62,496 nt of DNA from an uncultured Fidelibacterota bacterium (GTDB taxonomy: Bacteria; Fidelibacterota; Marinisomatia; Marinisomatales; TCS55): the NCBI GenBank assembly GCA_902581045.1, contig CACHMU010000005.1, positions 1-62,496 of the forward strand, read 5' to 3'. A program made the position numbers and the translations under genes. Positions within the stretch are counted from its first letter, which is position 1. Every line of letters begins with the position of its first letter. Of this stretch, positions 43,145-51,093 are shown one piece after another. The notes beneath the pieces are model-generated. The model did no database searches and had not been told where the DNA came from. It worked only from the letters and a program-made list of their open reading frames with translations.

Positions 43145-44356
43145 TTACTTGAAGATGTCCGCTGTTTTTTTAATGCTATCTCCAAGTTTTTCAATATCAT
43201 TTTTCGTATTATAAATGTAGAAGCTTGCACGCGCTGTAGCGTTGATTCCTAATCTATTCATAATTGGCTGTGTACAGTGATGGCCAGCACGGATACAGAT
43301 ACCATCTGTATCCAAGAATTTTGCGAGATCATGCGGATGAACATTTTTAACATTAAATGGAATAACCGCACCGCGTATTTCTGGATTACCATATAAAACT
43401 ATATTCTCATTTTGAGAAAGAATTTCTAATCCATACTTAAGTAATCCTTGCTCATGCTGATGAATATTTTCAATGCCAATTTTCTCTATATAATCAATTG
43501 CAGCGCCTAAGCCAATTACCTGTGCGATATTTGGAGTTCCTGCCTCAAATTTCCAGGGAACATCATTCCATGTAGATTTCTCCATAGTTACGGTATTGAT
43601 CATTTCACCGCCACCCATGAATGGATCCATTTTTTCCAAGATAGTTTTTCTACCTATTAATACACCTACACCAGTTGGTCCTAGCATTTTATGTCCTGAA
43701 AATGCATAGAAGTCACATCCTAAATTTTCAATATCTACTTTCATATGTGGAACAGCTTGTGCTCCATCAATAACTGTAATGGCACCAACTTTTTTAGCTT
43801 CATCAATAATTTTATTTATTGGATTGATTGTTCCAAAAACATTTGACTGATGTGATACACTAATAATTTTTGTTTTAGATAAAATCTTCTTTTCTAATGA
43901 TTCCAATTCAAGTGTTCCATCATTATTTAACAAGATATAATCAAGTGAAGTGTTTGATCTAGAACTCAATAATTGCCAAGGAACAAGATTACTATGATGT
44001 TCCATTTCTGTTATAAGTATATGATCATCGTTGCTAAGATTTTTTGTGCCCCAGGCATAAGCAATCAAATTAATTGACTCTGTTGTACCGCTTGAGAAAA
44101 TAATATTATGAGAATCAGGGACATTCATGAATTGTCTTACTTTTTCACGGACACTTTCATATTTGTCCGTGGCTTTTTCTCCTATTTCGTAAAGCGCTCG
44201 ATGAATATTAGCTGAATATGAATCATAATATGATGAAACGGAATCAATTACTGATTGTGGCTTTTGACTAGTGGAGGCAGAATCGAGATAAATAAAGTTT
44301 TTTTCTTTTGACTTAAAGATGGGAAAGTCATTTTTAATATCTTTTACATCTAGCAC
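43145..44356 (-). CDS. sufS: SufS cysteine desulfurase
   Basis: PLP enzyme that removes sulfur from cysteine for Fe-S assembly, activated by SufE. The 403 residues include FIYLDSASTSQKPQSVIDS, TEMEHHSNLVPWQLL, the PLP lysine in AFSGHKMLGPTGVG and the catalytic cysteine loop GICIRAGHHCTQPIM, a group II (SufS) signature. The start is GTG at 44356, which shares a base with the stop of the upstream DUF59 gene. It is the last core gene of the SUF operon. Confidence 0.95.
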   Translation of the reverse strand: MLDVKDIKNDFPIFKSKEKNFIYLDSASTSQKPQSVIDSVSSYYDSYSANIHRALYEIGEKATDKYESVREKVRQFMNVPDSHNIIFSSGTTESINLIAYAWGTKNLSNDDHILITEMEHHSNLVPWQLLSSRSNTSLDYILLNNDGTLELESLEKKILSKTKIISVSHQSNVFGTINPINKIIDEAKKVGAITVIDGAQAVPHMKVDIENLGCDFYAFSGHKMLGPTGVGVLIGRKTILEKMDPFMGGGEMINTVTMEKSTWNDVPWKFEAGTPNIAQVIGLGAAIDYIEKIGIENIHQHEQGLLKYGLEILSQNENIVLYGNPEIRGAVIPFNVKNVHPHDLAKFLDTDGICIRAGHHCTQPIMNRLGINATARASFYIYNTKNDIEKLGDSIKKTADIFK

Positions 44357-44910
44357 TATAGCATACCTAATTGGAGTCGAGCCGCTTCATTGATCATTTC
44401 ACGATCCCATGGTGGATCCCAAACAAGTTCTACAGTAACTTTATTTGATCCAGGTACACCTTCAATTTTTTGTTTTACTTCTGTTGCTATCATATCTCCC
44501 ATACCACAGCCTGGGGCAGTAAGCGTCATTTTCACATCTACGTCAGAGCCACCATCCTTATTTTCAGTTATTTTACAGGAATATATAAGACCAAGGTCAA
44601 CCACATTAACAGGGATTTCTGGATCATAGCAAGTTTTCATTGCTTCCCACACTGCTTTTTCATTGATACTTCCATCTGTATTTGTTTCTTCTAGCCAAGG
44701 TTGAACTTCAGGTATTTTCCCTATTGCATCTGCATCGCTACCTTCAATTCGAACTAAATTCCCACGAATCATAATAGTATAACTTCCACCTAGAGCTTGG
44801 GTTATATGTCCTTCTTCACCTTTTTTCAGGGTAATTTTATTTCCAAAAGGAATAAGTGTTGCTTCGCAATCGCGTTCTAAGATTACTTGTTCATCAATAT
44901 CTGAATACAT
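44356..44910 (-). CDS. sufT: SufT-like DUF59 (MIP18) Fe-S maturation protein with N-terminal extension
   Basis: A 184-residue auxiliary Fe-S maturation factor. The C-terminal DUF59 domain (about 85-184) contains CYDPEIPVNVVDLGLIYSC, LTAPGCGMGDMIATEV and ELVWDPPWDREMINEAARLQLGML. The N-terminal 80 residues carry a beta-rich segment (KITLKKGEEGHITQALGGSY) typical of the long SufT form. It lies between sufE and sufS. A second, shorter DUF59 protein is encoded at 49189-49563. Confidence 0.87.
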   Translation of the reverse strand: MYSDIDEQVILERDCEATLIPFGNKITLKKGEEGHITQALGGSYTIMIRGNLVRIEGSDADAIGKIPEVQPWLEETNTDGSINEKAVWEAMKTCYDPEIPVNVVDLGLIYSCKITENKDGGSDVDVKMTLTAPGCGMGDMIATEVKQKIEGVPGSNKVTVELVWDPPWDREMINEAARLQLGML

Positions 44911-44913
44911 ATT

Positions 44914-45324
44914 TTAATCCAATAACTCACTTTGAATTTTACTTATAGCATTACTGAAGCCATTTGTTCTTTGACTGCTTATAGAACGCCCTAAACCAAC
45001 AGAGTCAAGAAATTGGCTACCATCTATTTCTAATATTTCCTCTTTTGTGTGATTATTAAATGACCTCTCTATTAAAGATAAAAGACCTCTTACAATCATT
45101 GCATCCGAATCTGTTCTAAAAAAATATTTTTCACCATTTATTTTGCGAGTAACCCAAGCTTGAGAAGTACATCCATGGATACGATTGATCTCATTTTTTT
45201 CTTGATCATCTAAACCCTCTAGATCTTTTGCGAGATCAACCAAAAATACGTATTTATCTCTAGGGTCACTAAATACGGAAAATTCATCTTTTATAACATT
45301 AAGTGTTTCAACTATACTAGGCAT
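44914..45324 (-). CDS. sufE: SufE sulfur acceptor protein
   Basis: Accepts persulfide sulfur from SufS and relays it to SufBCD. The 136-residue protein carries the acceptor cysteine C52 in IHGCTSQAWV and the family tail AMIVRGLLSLIERSFNNHTKEEI. The ATG at 45324 overlaps the sufD stop by 8 bases; a TTG one codon earlier is in frame but less likely. Within the operon order sufA-B-C-D-E-T-S it sits where expected. Confidence 0.93.
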   Translation of the reverse strand: MPSIVETLNVIKDEFSVFSDPRDKYVFLVDLAKDLEGLDDQEKNEINRIHGCTSQAWVTRKINGEKYFFRTDSDAMIVRGLLSLIERSFNNHTKEEILEIDGSQFLDSVGLGRSISSQRTNGFSNAISKIQSELLD

Positions 45325-46603
45325 CAATTAGAACTTCCTCGATCCAATTTGTAACTTTAGTATTAATATAATTTTTTACATCTTCGTTATTTATTTGTTC
45401 AACAATATCTTTTGCAAAGCCGTTGATAATTAACTCAATAGATTTTGATTTGCTTATTCCCCTTGATTGCAGATAGAATAGTGCTTCAGAGTCAATTTGA
45501 CCAGTGGTGGATCCATGTGAACATTTTACATCTTCAGAATATATCTCAAGTTGAGGGTTAGTATTCATAATCGCATCGGAACTCAATAGAAGGTTTTTAT
45601 TTGCTTGATCAGCATCAGTATGCTGTGTGTTTTCTTTAACGACCACTTTCCCATTGAATACACCTGATGATCTATCAGATAAGATATATTTAAATAACTG
45701 CTCGCTTTGGCAAGCATTATGAAAATGATCAATAATTATATGTTGATCATGATGTTGGTCATTTTTAATTGTTGAGAGGCCATTAATAGTTGCATAACCA
45801 CCCTTATTATTAAAAGCTAAATTTATATTATGGCGAAATAATTTACTTCCAGATGATGTAGATACTGAATTTAGTTGGCTATCAGAATTAAGAATATAAT
45901 TTGTTGAGGCGATATGATTTGCTAGCGCGTCATCCTCTTCAATTCGAAAATGGCATAGTTTTGCATTATCCTCTAAAATAACATTTGAAACAGGATTAAT
46001 AAAATAAGCTAGTTCTGTTGAACCTTTATAGTGTTCAATAATTGTTGCTTCTGAATTTTTTCCAAGTTGGAAAATAAATCTTGGGTGATTCATAAGTGGG
46101 TTTAAAATATCTATTGTACTATATATCACTTGTATTGGCTTATCAATAACCGTATTTGAATCAAGTGCAATACAAATGCCTGAATTCATCATTGATGTAT
46201 TCAAAGCACTGAATGGATTTAAGTTATTATTATCTATATATAGCTCTTTGTTTGATTGAAAATGATCAATACCGGTTGATATAGATATTGATTCCGGTAT
46301 TTCAGACAAATCTTTTTGATAATGACCATTAACTATATATATAAGATAAGAATTAGGAATTCGTCCCGATATATTTTCAGGTATTTGAGGTAAATCTTTT
46401 GATTGTGATAATCTAAAATTTATTTTTTTTAGCGATGAAAAATCTGTGAATTGCCACTCTTCCCACTGTTTTGTAGGAAGGCCAAGACTCTTGAATTGAT
46501 CAAACGCCTTTGATCGTAACTTACGTAGCTCAGGATCTTCGTTAGGCCAATAAGCTAATAGATTATCAAATTGTTTTTGAAATTGTTTTATTTCTCTAGC
46601 CAA
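45317..46603 (-). CDS. sufD: SufD scaffold subunit
   Basis: Beta-helical scaffold protein that forms SufBC2D with SufB and SufC. The 428 residues have the SufD N-terminus (LRKLRSKAFDQFKSLGLPTK, then QWEEWQFTDFSSL) and the C-terminal VKCSHGSTTGQIDSEALFYL, with the conserved His region, followed by RGISKSKSIELIINGFAKDI. The start is TTG at 46603, inside the end of sufC (16-base overlap); no in-frame ATG is near and the N-terminus is needed for the family match. Confidence 0.93.
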   Translation of the reverse strand: MAREIKQFQKQFDNLLAYWPNEDPELRKLRSKAFDQFKSLGLPTKQWEEWQFTDFSSLKKINFRLSQSKDLPQIPENISGRIPNSYLIYIVNGHYQKDLSEIPESISISTGIDHFQSNKELYIDNNNLNPFSALNTSMMNSGICIALDSNTVIDKPIQVIYSTIDILNPLMNHPRFIFQLGKNSEATIIEHYKGSTELAYFINPVSNVILEDNAKLCHFRIEEDDALANHIASTNYILNSDSQLNSVSTSSGSKLFRHNINLAFNNKGGYATINGLSTIKNDQHHDQHIIIDHFHNACQSEQLFKYILSDRSSGVFNGKVVVKENTQHTDADQANKNLLLSSDAIMNTNPQLEIYSEDVKCSHGSTTGQIDSEALFYLQSRGISKSKSIELIINGFAKDIVEQINNEDVKNYINTKVTNWIEEVLIDA

Positions 46604-47328
46604 GAATAACCTTTTTCTTCTAACTGATTAGCAAGTGAAATATCACCAGATTTAACAATTTTTCCGTCAATTAATACATGAATATAATCGGGATGCATAT
46701 ACTCAAGTAGGCGTTGGTAGTGAGTAATCGCCAAAAATGATCTGGTCTCAGTTCTAAAGTTATTAACACCTTCCGCAATAGTTTTTAATGCATCAATATC
46801 TAGTCCAGAATCAGTTTCATCAAGTATAGATAATTCAGGTTCTAGTGTAAGCATTTGTAAGATTTCATTTCTTTTTTTCTCTCCGCCTGAAAATCCATCA
46901 TTCACTGCTCTGCTTAAATATGATTCATCTAAATTTACCAATTTTACTTTTTCACGAATTAATCTCATAAAGTCAGAAGCATTGATTTCACTTTTACCCT
47001 GATGTTTTAGTTTCGCATTAAGAGCTGCTCTTAAAAAGTAAGCATTGTTTACACCGGGAATTGATACAGGATATTGAAATGACATGAAAATTCCCGCCAA
47101 AGCACGATCCTCAATAGACATTTCGAGTAGATTATTTCCATTATATGTTATTGAGCCTTTAGTTACTAAAAAATTATCACGACCAGTGATTATGTTAGCA
47201 AGGGTACTTTTCCCAGAACCATTTCGTCCCATTATTGCATGTAATTCACCAGGCTTTATGGAAAGATTAATTCCTTTCAAAATTTCCTTTCCATCAACGC
47301 TAGCATGTATATTTTTAATTATTAACAT
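46588..47328 (-). CDS. sufC: SufC ATPase
   Basis: ABC-type ATPase that drives the SufBCD scaffold. The 246 residues show Walker A GRNGSGKST (34-42), the unusual SufC signature FSGGEKKRNEILQML, Walker B with LSILDETDSGLDIDALKTIAEG, and the H-loop ITHYQRLLEYMHPDYIHVL. It is normal in length and position between sufB and sufD. Confidence 0.96.
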   Translation of the reverse strand: MLIIKNIHASVDGKEILKGINLSIKPGELHAIMGRNGSGKSTLANIITGRDNFLVTKGSITYNGNNLLEMSIEDRALAGIFMSFQYPVSIPGVNNAYFLRAALNAKLKHQGKSEINASDFMRLIREKVKLVNLDESYLSRAVNDGFSGGEKKRNEILQMLTLEPELSILDETDSGLDIDALKTIAEGVNNFRTETRSFLAITHYQRLLEYMHPDYIHVLIDGKIVKSGDISLANQLEEKGYSWLEK

Positions 47329-47370
47329 TCGAAGTGTGTAATTATGATTAATAAAATTAAACGAATAATT

Positions 47371-48819
47371 TTATCCCACTGCGCCCTCCAGACTTACTTC
47401 CATTAACTTTTGAGCTTCAACAGCAAATTCCATTGGAAGTTCATTGAAGACATCTTTGCAGAATCCGTTAACGATTAGTGATACTGCATCTTCTGTAGAG
47501 ATTCCGCGTTGATTACAATAGAATAATTGATCTTCGCCTATTTTTGATGTTGATGCTTCATGCTCCATTTGAGCTGATGGATTTCTAACATCAATATAAG
47601 GAAATGTATGGGCACCACAATTTTCACCAATTAAAATAGAGTCACACTGAGAGAAATTTCTAGCATTATCAGCATTCTTCATTATTTTTACGCCACCTCG
47701 GTATGTATTTTGTCCTTTACCAGCCGAGATTCCCTTAGATATAATTGTACTTTTTGTATTTTTTCCAAGGTGTATCATTTTTGTTCCAGTATCAGCTTGT
47801 TGAAAATTATTTGATAGGGCTACTGAGTAAAATTCTCCAATGGAATTATTTCCTTTTAATATACAACTTGGATATTTCCATGTAAGAGCAGATCCCGTTT
47901 CTACTTGGGTCCAAGAAATTTTTGAGTTATCACCTAAACAGGTTCCGCGTTTAGTAACAAAATTATAGATACCTCCTTTGCCAGTTTTTGGGTTACCCGG
48001 GTACCAATTTTGTACTGTAGAATATTTTATTTCCGCATTTTTATGTGCCACCAGTTCAACAACTGCAGCATGAAGCTGATTCTCGTCTCTCATCGGGGCA
48101 GTGCATCCTTCCAAATAGCTTACATGACTACCTTCTTCAGCAACAATTAGGGTTCTTTCAAATTGTCCTGTTTTTGCAGCATTAATTCTAAAATAAGTTG
48201 ATAGCTCCATTGGGCATCTAACATTTTTTGGGATATAAACAAAACTACCATCGCTGAACACGGCTGAATTAAGTGCAGCAAAATAATTATCAGTAGTAGG
48301 GACAACACTTCCTAAGTATTTTTTTATAATATCTGGATGCTTTTGTACGGCTTCAGAAAAAGAACAAAAAATAACACCATGTTTTTCGAGTTCTTCTTTA
48401 AAAGTCGTGGTAACTGATACGCTATCAAATACTGCATCAACAGCGACATTAGAAAGTAATTTTTGTTCTTCTAATGGTATTCCTAATTTATTGTAAGTCT
48501 CTAATAATTCTGGATCTACCTCATCTAAACTCTTGAGTTTTTCTTTTTGCTTTGGTGCGGCATAATATGATATAGCCTGGAAATCAATATCATCATAATT
48601 TAATTTAGACCAATCAGGCTCATCCATTTTTAGCCATTGCTTATAAGCTTTTAATCTCCAATCCAATAGCCATTCGGGTTCCTGTTTTTTTGATGATATA
48701 ATTTTTATTACATCTTCATTTAAACCAGGTGGAATTTTTTCTTGATCTATATCTGTAGTAAAGCCATACTCATATTCTTGGCTTATTGCCGAATCAATAA
48801 TACTCTGATTGTTTTTCAT
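47371..48819 (-). CDS. sufB: SufB scaffold subunit
   Basis: Fe-S cluster scaffold core subunit. With the ATG at 48819 it has 482 residues. Motifs include [77 protein letters not shown] and the terminal [20 protein letters not shown]. The frame is open 17 codons upstream into sufA, but those residues are not SufB-like and the ATG at 48819 gives the usual start. Confidence 0.96.
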
Positions 48820-48826
48820 ATTTGCT

Positions 48827-49189
48827 CTATACTGAAAAAGAAGTCCCGCAACCGCAAGTGCGTTCGGCATTTGGATTCACAATTTTGAATCCTCCATTAA
48901 GGATATCATTTGAGAAATCAATCTCAATTCCTTTAAGATATAAATAACTTTTTAAATCGCAAAATATTTTCATTCCTTGACTATTAAAAACTTTGTCGAA
49001 TTCTTTTTGTTCTTTTTCAAATGACATATCGTAATTCATTCCTGAACAACCACCAGTAGTGACTGTCATTCTAAGGCCAAAACCTTTTTTACCTTCGGCT
49101 GCCATAACAGCAGCTAAACGTTCAGCCGCCTTTTTAGACATTGTAATTCCAGCATCAAATATTTCTTTAGTATTAGTTTGTTTTTCCAT
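48827..49189 (-). CDS. sufA: A-type Fe-S carrier (SufA/IscA/HesB family)
   Basis: A 120-residue Fe-S carrier with the three conserved cysteines: C48 in [14 protein letters not shown] and C112/C114 in [10 protein letters not shown]. The ATG at 49189 shares one base with the stop of the preceding DUF59 gene (TAATG arrangement), showing translational coupling. An in-frame GTG three codons upstream is less likely. It sits second in the SUF operon after the DUF59 gene. Confidence 0.93.
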
Positions 49190-49563
49190 TATTCCCACTC
49201 TGTATTAATTGTAGGTTCTTTTCTCTCTTGAGGGCTAGATAAATTTATTCCAAGTTTTTCTTTGGCTTCATCTGTGATCATTTCTGGATTCCATGGCGGA
49301 TCAAAAGTTACTTCAACAAAAGCTTGATTTATTTCATCAAGATTTTCAAGTTTATTCTTTATATCATTTGCCATTTGTTCACCCATGGTACAGCCAGGTG
49401 TGGTCAATGACATAACAATATTGACATCTGATTTGGTTTCATCATAAGACTCTTGGGTTTGAATACTATAGATTAGTCCTAGGTTCCATAAATCCACTGG
49501 AAGTTCGGGATCATAGCATTGTTTGAGTATTTCAATGATTTGATTTTCTTGAACTTGTGACAT
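49189..49563 (-). CDS. DUF59 (MIP18-like) Fe-S maturation protein, short form
   Basis: A 124-residue DUF59 protein: CYDPELPVDLWNLGLIYSI, MSLTTPGCTMGEQMANDI and VTFDPPWNPEMITDEAKEKL. It is the single-domain form, with PGC carrying the conserved cysteine. It lies directly downstream of the Rrf2 regulator (0-base gap) and is coupled to sufA. Together with the longer SufT it makes two DUF59 paralogues within one operon. Confidence 0.88.
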   Translation of the reverse strand: MSQVQENQIIEILKQCYDPELPVDLWNLGLIYSIQTQESYDETKSDVNIVMSLTTPGCTMGEQMANDIKNKLENLDEINQAFVEVTFDPPWNPEMITDEAKEKLGINLSSPQERKEPTINTEWE

Positions 49564-49962
49564 TTATTGTGTTATCTCTTGTAGTGTCATTTGAGAAAAC
49601 ATATCCCTCATATTATTATTTATTCTTTGTATGGGGACCCTGATATTGCAATTTGAAATCTGTACACATTCTGAATCAAAATAACAGTCCATCATTCCTA
49701 GTGGCCCTTCAAGTTTTTCAAAAAAATCTTTCAAGGAGATCTTTTTAAGATTAGCTGCTATTTTATAACCACCCGTTGGGCCATGAACTGCCTTAACAAT
49801 TCCCTCTCTTGACATCTGCTGCAATGTTTTTGCTAGTAGTTGTTTTGGAATTCCATATTGTGCGGCAATTTCTTTAGCGCTAGTTAGACCAATATCATTT
49901 TTGGATTGCATATGTCGTAATGCGATCAATGCATATTCTACTTTGCGTGTAATATTTAGCAT
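49564..49962 (-). CDS. Rrf2-family Fe-S-sensing regulator (IscR/SufR-like)
   Basis: A 132-residue winged-helix transcription regulator. The HTH region includes KVEYALIALRHMQSK and AQYGIPKQLLAKTLQQMSREG, followed by VHGPTGGYKIA. Three cysteines at 93, 99 and 105 (C-x5-C-x5-C) reproduce the cluster-ligand spacing of E. coli IscR (92, 98, 104), so it probably carries a [2Fe-2S] cluster. It is first in the SUF operon and is expected to control it. An inverted repeat at 50013-50043 is a candidate operator. Confidence 0.9.
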   Translation of the reverse strand: MLNITRKVEYALIALRHMQSKNDIGLTSAKEIAAQYGIPKQLLAKTLQQMSREGIVKAVHGPTGGYKIAANLKKISLKDFFEKLEGPLGMMDCYFDSECVQISNCNIRVPIQRINNNMRDMFSQMTLQEITQ

Positions 49963-50012: not shown

Positions 50013-50043
50013 ATTATATACGACAAAAATTATCGTATATAAT
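50013..50043 (-). promoter_or_regulatory. Candidate operator of the SUF operon
   Basis: ATTATATACGA (50013-50023) and TCGTATATAAT (50033-50043) form an 11-bp perfect inverted repeat with a 9-base spacer. It is centred about 65 bases upstream of the Rrf2 gene ATG, and the repeat contains a TATAAT-like -10. It lacks a U-run and its arms are AT-rich, so a protein-binding dyad is more likely than a terminator for selD, whose stop lies next to it. Confidence 0.5.
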
Positions 50044-51093
50044 TTAATCTACTATAATATATTTATCTCTATATGATGAAAGGATTCCAATTTGTTTTGA
50101 TTCGAATCCAGTAGCTTCTGTGCATTGTTTTGCATATTCTGTTGCGTTTGATTGTGGCAAAGCAACGAGTAATCCGCCTGAAGTTTGTGCATCTGATAGC
50201 AAGAGTTTTTCAGTATTATTTAGCTGCTTTGAAAAATCAACAAAATCAGAAATATATTCAAGATTTCGTTTTGTTCCTCCGGAAATATTTCCATTACTTG
50301 CCAATGTTGAAATACCATTTAGAAATGGAATACTATCAAATTTTATTTTGGCTGATACTTTACTTGCTTTACACAGTTCATAAAGGTGGCCAAGTAGCCC
50401 AAAGCCTGTTATGTCTGTGGATGCATTAACAGAAAATTCATGCATTAATTCTCCAGCAAAAGAATTGAGTGTTTTCATACAGTTGATCGCCTCATTAATC
50501 ATTTTTTCTGAAGCCTCTCCATTTTTTATGGCTGTTGAAATAATTCCAGATCCTAATGGTTTTGTAAGTACTAAGGCATCTCCCTCTTTTGCTTCAGAGT
50601 TTTTGATCAATTTTGATTTTTGAACTTCACCACTTACAACTAAACCATATTTAGGTTCTTTATCATCAATACTATGTCCACCAACTATAGGTATACCAGC
50701 TTCTTCAGCTTTATCTGAACCACCTTTAAGAATAGCTGATAAAATATCTTTTGATAATTCATCAATGGGGAAACCAACAATATTTAATGCAAAAAGAGGT
50801 TTCGCGCCCATTGCATATATATCTGACAATGCATTGGCCGCAGCTATTTGCCCAAATTGATATGGATCATCTACTATAGGCGTAAAAAAATCTACACTTT
50901 GAACTATAAATTTGTCACCATCCAATGCAATTACTGCAGCATCATCAGATTCATCGAATCCTACAATAACATTATCTTTAAATTTTGAATTAATATTACT
51001 CAGAACCTGAGAAAGGTCTTTAGGACCAATTTTACAAGCTCAACCAGCTCCATGAGAATAGTGAGTTAGTTTAATTTTATCTAATTTTGACAT
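50044..51093 (-). CDS. selD: Selenophosphate synthetase, a selenoprotein with in-frame TGA
   Basis: Makes selenophosphate from selenide and ATP, the selenium donor for selenocysteine and selenouridine. The gene starts at the ATG at 51093 and reads KLTHYSHGAG, then TGA at 51040-51042, then ACKIGP. Residue 18 is therefore selenocysteine at the catalytic position that is Cys17 in E. coli SelD, followed by Lys21 (Lys20 in E. coli). Reading through gives 349 residues, the normal length, with GFDESDDAAVIALDGDKFIVQSVDFFTP and the C-terminal AIRS domain intact. Starting after the TGA would remove the whole active site. A candidate bacterial SECIS hairpin follows the TGA. The gene is divergent from korA. 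Confidence 0.93.
50999..51027 (-). promoter_or_regulatory. Candidate bacterial SECIS element in selD
   Basis: Downstream of the TGA, on the coding strand, GGTC-CTAAA-GACC (51027 to 51015) and then CTCAG-GTT-CTGAG (51011 to 50999) form two small hairpins. The second has a 5-bp stem with GTT in the loop, about 30 bases after the TGA. That is within the range expected for bacterial SECIS apical loops, which usually contain G and U. Both hairpins lie within coding sequence. Confidence 0.5.

Follow-up and report, generated by a model that had tools for sequence, protein, structure and literature searches.

Does the selD gene of an uncultured Fidelibacterota bacterium encode a selenoprotein, or is the in-frame TGA near its 5' end an error, a reassigned codon or a triplet upstream of the true start? 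The gene is located on a stretch of 62,496 nucleotides, here called the window, which belongs to a genome assembly of 943 kb in 48 contigs with an estimated completeness of 58.5%. The reading frame and the fate of the TGA in related genomes, the elements required for selenocysteine (Sec) insertion, the distribution of SelD within the phylum and the genes surrounding selD are considered below; coordinates are collected in Table 1.

The selD reading frame and its in-frame TGA

Translation of the minus-strand frame 50044-51093 with TGA read as U yields a protein of 349 residues, which starts with MSKLDKIKLTHYSHGAGUACKIGP. The frame contains a single internal TGA at codon 18 (51042-51040), embedded in the motif SHGAG-U-ACKIGP, and continues for 331 codons up to a normal stop at 50046-50044. 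The product matches the SelD profile TIGR00476 with 415.5 bits (cut-off 125) over profile positions 1-310 of 311 and NF002098 with 395 bits (cut-off 299), and in the alignment with SelD of E. coli (PDB 3U0O), U18 and K21 correspond to Cys17 and Lys20, respectively. The first-pass annotation had described an ATG at 51093, a TGA at the catalytic residue, 331 further codons and an active-site lysine three residues after the Sec, all of which were recovered by retranslation and alignment. It had also predicted that automated annotation would truncate the gene near 50925. Indeed, ORF calling with translation table 11 shortens selD to 50044..50925, and the catalytic N-terminus of SelD is missed by this standard procedure.

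The TGA is highly conserved. Among the best 80 loci in a collection of around 85,000 species genomes, 79 carry TGA at codon 18, and the lone exception, a Saliterribacillus sequence, has a Cys codon. A comparison with 60 relatives of the window's genome showed exactly one TGA in every full-length SelD match except for a fused protein, and TGA is present in 91 of 109 SelD matches phylum-wide. The part of the gene following the TGA is under purifying selection, with dN/dS values of about 0.16 and 0.15 in comparison with two homologs of the same genus (Nei-Gojobori method with Jukes-Cantor correction).

These data bear on three rival explanations. A sequencing or assembly error, which the first-pass annotation had named as a possible refutation, or a decayed gene might be suspected in an incomplete assembly of 48 contigs; however, the same TGA recurs in the 79 other assemblies and 91 phylum-wide matches and the codons past it are constrained (dN/dS around 0.15), so selD is neither an error nor a pseudogene, and the probability of either is practically nil. 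A general reassignment of TGA, for instance to Trp or Gly, could be read from the fact that only two of the 39 long ORFs of the window end in TGA. On the contig carrying selA and selB, however, TGA terminates four of 13 and one of four long ORFs, and its use as a normal stop of other genes, there and in the window, thus speaks against a genome-wide reassignment. In addition, selA, selB and a SECIS-like hairpin are present, and all internal TGAs found are located at known Sec or catalytic Cys positions, which makes reassignment just as negligible. Slightly less negligible, yet still very improbable, is a translation start further downstream: the 293-aa frame obtained by standard ORF calling, starting with TTG at 50925, would produce a SelD without the Sec loop. 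Against this stands the motif SHG(A/S)GUACK, which is kept around the TGA in nearly all Fidelibacterota relatives, and the N-terminal loop contains the catalytic Cys/Sec and Lys residues of SelD according to the alignment and the established biochemistry of the enzyme. Sequence comparison makes it almost certain that selD of the window is a genuine selenoprotein gene.

Few prokaryotic selenoproteins are as widespread as SelD (PMC13188914), and in a reference set from 2015, Sec was encoded by 19% of the SelD genes (PMC4561486). The protein described here belongs to this already well-known selenoprotein family, and its novelty is low. It resembles the Sec-SelD/SPS2 proteins of Pasteurellales, Methanococcales and many marine bacteria (PMC4561486, PMC2398784) in family, length, the single catalytic Sec, the Lys three residues further on and a SECIS-like hairpin within the coding sequence. 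No mechanistic difference to these proteins is apparent; what sets the phylum apart is that Sec is near-universal in stand-alone SelD. The E. coli enzyme is a member of the same TIGR00476 family, but has Cys instead of Sec and lacks the in-frame UGA.

Table 1. Location of selD, neighboring elements and related loci in other contigs and genomes
Feature	Position or locus	Strand	Remarks
selD, selenide water dikinase	50044..51093	-	349 aa, predicted Sec at residue 18; ATG 51093-51091, stop 50046-50044
In-frame TGA, predicted Sec18 codon	51040..51042	-	homologous to Cys17 of E. coli SelD
Lys21 codon (AAA)	51031..51033	-	equivalent to active-site Lys20 of E. coli SelD
Small upstream hairpin, GGUC-CUAAA-GACC	51015..51027	-	abuts the predicted bSECIS; conserved, without covariation support
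Predicted bSECIS hairpin	50996..51014	-	core CUCAG[GUU]CUGAG (51011-50999); loop 33 nt past the UGA; stem extended to 8 pairs in relatives
Perfect 11-bp inverted repeat (ATTATATACGA-N9-TCGTATATAAT)	50013..50043	.	between selD and rrf2
Rrf2-family regulator	49564..49962	-	first gene downstream of selD
suf cluster sufT-iscA-sufB-sufC-sufD-sufE-sufT-sufS	43145..49563	-	neighbor of selD
Further selenoprotein genes	L160 (G000:C20 TGA 8388), L161 (G000:C7 TGA 43213), L162 (G000:C23 TGA 6179)		two Sec-peroxiredoxins and one Rdx/SelW-like CxxU protein
Fusion examples, 700-748 aa	L164:1019-3250 (G058:C50); L185-L192, L194		several Fidelibacterota families
SelD-less g22 genomes	G050, G060, G087, G110, G122, G123, G126, G131, G136, G138, G141		streamlined genus, same order

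The predicted recoding hairpin and the Sec machinery

In E. coli fdhF, the bSECIS is a stem-loop located past the UGA with G-U at the tip of the loop. The hairpin predicted downstream of the selD UGA shares both characteristics; in contrast to fdhF, the distance from the UGA to its loop is 33 nt, close to the upper end of what is usual for bSECIS loops, and a second small hairpin is placed in between. Evidence for this element comes from an ungapped alignment of 54 relatives, in which stem columns 29-36 pair with columns 40-47 around a GUN triloop. Changes on both sides of the stem occur in five of the eight pairs and in 32 cells, compared with a mean of 12.9 in shuffled alignments and 3 to 24 in slid controls, and 85% of the cells pair, whereas the slid controls reach at most 48%. 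A GUN hairpin at +33 is present in 56 of 71 Sec-SelD genes; after synonymous codon replacement in these genes (200 replicates), which allows for coding constraint, it occurred in 28.5 genes on average and in 37 at most. The +33 GUN hairpin was not found in the two Cys versions of SelD examined. In three other selenoprotein genes of the window's genome, short hairpins with GUU or GUA follow the UGA at a distance of 17 to 22 nt. Rfam scans returned no match to a SECIS family at the selD site and when the window is folded as a single sequence, the minimum-energy structure has a pairing other than the GUU hairpin; the case for the hairpin therefore rests on comparison. Given the G in the first loop positions and the covariation, the hairpin at 51014-50996 is a predicted bSECIS-type element, and it is situated inside the interval 50990-51045 that had been proposed for a bSECIS search. 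In this minimum-energy structure, the UGA-adjacent GAGCUUG pairs with CAGGUUC; the pairing showed weak covariation (six double-change cells), and the distal hairpin was preferred. The GGUC/GACC hairpin was also considered as a functional element; it is conserved, but no compensating changes were seen, and it was therefore not retained as a candidate.

The first-pass annotation had further expected selA, selB and selC elsewhere in the genome. This holds for selA (507 bits, cut-off 268) and selB (347 bits, cut-off 242), which are adjacent on contig 10, whereas no tRNA-Sec was detected in the assembly (58.5% complete); candidates for it proved to be tRNA-Leu and tRNA-Glu. A genome of the same genus (G002) possesses a tRNA-Sec with the anticodon UCA, and the region syntenic to the DNA surrounding it is absent from the window's assembly. 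In another genome of the genus, the contig stops around 70 bp short of the tRNA-Sec position, and a tRNA-Sec match exceeding the curated cut-off was obtained in 48 of 61 genomes. We infer that the tRNA-Sec gene of the window's organism lies in the missing part of its genome. Further selenium-related genes are present in the same genome: in two AhpC/TSA peroxiredoxin genes, TGA occupies the peroxidatic position (TPG-U-T), an Rdx/SelW-like protein contains the motif CNSU (CxxU, TGA read as U), and SelU (YbbB; TIGR03167, 318.8 bits, cut-off 219.75) is encoded as well. The adjacent selA and selB genes, the other Sec genes and SelU thus indicate that the organism has both the Sec and the selenouridine trait. 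None of the 31 Rdx matches from 30 genomes lacks the TGA.

From these components, the following mechanism can be proposed. SelB bound to the downstream hairpin (loop GUU at +33) would deliver Sec-tRNA(Sec), which SelA would produce from selenophosphate, to UGA18 of selD, thereby inserting Sec at residue 18. The full-length protein of 349 aa would then synthesize selenophosphate using Sec18, to which a catalytic role is ascribed by homology, and Lys21 in a flexible N-terminal loop. Selenophosphate would feed Sec synthesis via SelA and probably also the formation of 2-selenouridine in tRNAs via SelU. Since Sec18 would itself be made from selenophosphate, SelD would depend on its own product, which would establish a positive loop.

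Distribution of Sec- and Cys-containing SelD in Fidelibacterota

The first-pass annotation had placed the Sec-containing SelD in an FCB-type marine lineage; the nearest records are assigned to Candidatus Neomarinimicrobiota/Marinimicrobia. This group, formerly SAR406, is now named Fidelibacterota (PMC11652737). None of the papers searched describes the selenoproteins of Fidelibacterota. In one study, three SAR406 single-cell genomes are listed as carrying an orphan SelD (PMC5029168). Because a Sec-requiring SelD cannot work without Sec decoding, these listings probably represent incomplete genomes of ordinary Sec users. The same study proposed partner genes for orphan SelD; two of these types, a cysteine desulfurase-like gene and an ABC ATPase, would match SufS and SufC, respectively, which are encoded within ten genes of selD here.

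To survey the distribution of SelD, 139 genomes from across the phylum were used, with a completeness of at least 85% in almost all cases. SelD is encoded in 106 of them, with 109 matches in total. In genus g22, whose genomes comprise about 0.8-1.0 Mb, none of the 11 listed genomes has a SelD match, and SelA over the cut-off was not found in either of the two g22 genomes checked; the Sec trait appears to have been lost during genome reduction in this genus. With these results, a large phylum of uncultured ocean bacteria can be firmly counted among the Sec users.

The matches with and without TGA differ in their architecture. All 91 TGA-containing matches are frames of stand-alone size (up to 423 codons), whereas all 17 SelD frames of 700-748 aa are devoid of TGA, as is one further match truncated at the end of its contig. 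Of the long frames, ten were read and five were scanned; in each, an N-terminal NifS/IscS-like cysteine desulfurase is joined to a SelD part whose active site has Cys. SelA over the cut-off is present in 17 of the 18 genomes having a SelD match without TGA. One genome (G058) carries both a Cys-containing fusion and a stand-alone Sec-SelD. The SelD parts of 11 sampled non-TGA sequences, one of them the sequence cut by the contig end, form one group with support of 100/99 and one change on the tree, and the cysteine desulfurase-SelD fusion of Fidelibacterota is, according to this phylogeny, of single origin.

Earlier work had described few NifS-SelD fusions and had found that extended SelDs are nearly always of the Cys form (PMC4561486, PMC2398784); the split in Fidelibacterota therefore extends a known pattern. 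The N-terminal desulfurase of the NifS-SelD fusion of Geobacter sp. FRC-32 (PMC4561486, PMC2398784) is also found in the fusions of other Fidelibacterota; however, Sec in the Geobacter protein contrasts with Cys in the Fidelibacterota fusions examined, and selD of the window is unfused. It could be speculated that the active-site residue follows the architecture, with Sec in stand-alone and Cys in fused SelD, which would suggest that Sec captures scarce free selenide and that the hand-over by a fused or neighboring Suf-type desulfurase removes this need. We consider this idea rather unlikely, and the matches behind the association share ancestry and represent few independent events. The occurrence of Sec in stand-alone and of Cys in desulfurase-fused SelD offers a natural comparison for the role of Sec in SelD. 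This contrast, the Sec assignment at the phylum level and the probable correction of the orphan-SelD listings are the parts of the analysis with lasting value.

Genomic neighborhood of selD

Downstream of selD, an Rrf2 regulator gene and the suf genes for Fe-S cluster formation lie on the same strand, and korAB is oriented divergently. In 45 relatives with at least 2.5 kb of downstream flank (nearly all Fidelibacterota), suf or rrf2 genes are found within 2 kb downstream of selD on the same strand in 32 cases, and within 300 bp in 27. Between selD and rrf2, the sequence TACGA-N9-TCGTA is conserved in many relatives; in some of these, both arms are altered in a matching way (TATCCGA/TCGGATA in L101 and L104). 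The palindrome at 50013-50043 is thus probably the operator of the rrf2-suf genes with Rrf2 as the regulator. Its position between selD and rrf2 argues against a simple co-transcription of selD and suf, and the assumption that they form one operon is weakened accordingly.

A functional coupling of selD to suf, in which SufS serves as the selenium donor and expression is coordinated, would be compatible with the Sec-SelD explanation. It is favored by the position of selD immediately before rrf2/suf, in the same orientation, in the 32 of 45 relatives, by the persistence of this linkage where the internal order of the suf genes is altered (L102, L112 and L113, in which selD still lies upstream) and by the occurrence of desulfurase-SelD fusions in the same phylum. 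Moreover, in E. coli, the selenium needed to make selenophosphate is provided by NifS-like proteins (Lacourciere et al. 2000, as cited in PMC4561486), and by analogy, it is plausible that SufS supplies selenium to SelD. However, the divergent korAB-fumC neighbors are equally conserved on the other side, so the linkage of selD and suf may be plain synteny; the operator-like palindrome suggests a separate suf promoter, and the genome has other cysteine desulfurase-like genes. Coupling is possible, but doubtful.

In several relatives, an additional gene is inserted between korA and selD. L075:7166-7969, L084:7198-8001 and L112:7060-7878 encode a protein of about 267 aa, which has no family assignment. 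L087:5995-7962 and L106:5955-7922 encode a protein of about 655 aa, which may resemble ion channels of the CASTOR/POLLUX type.
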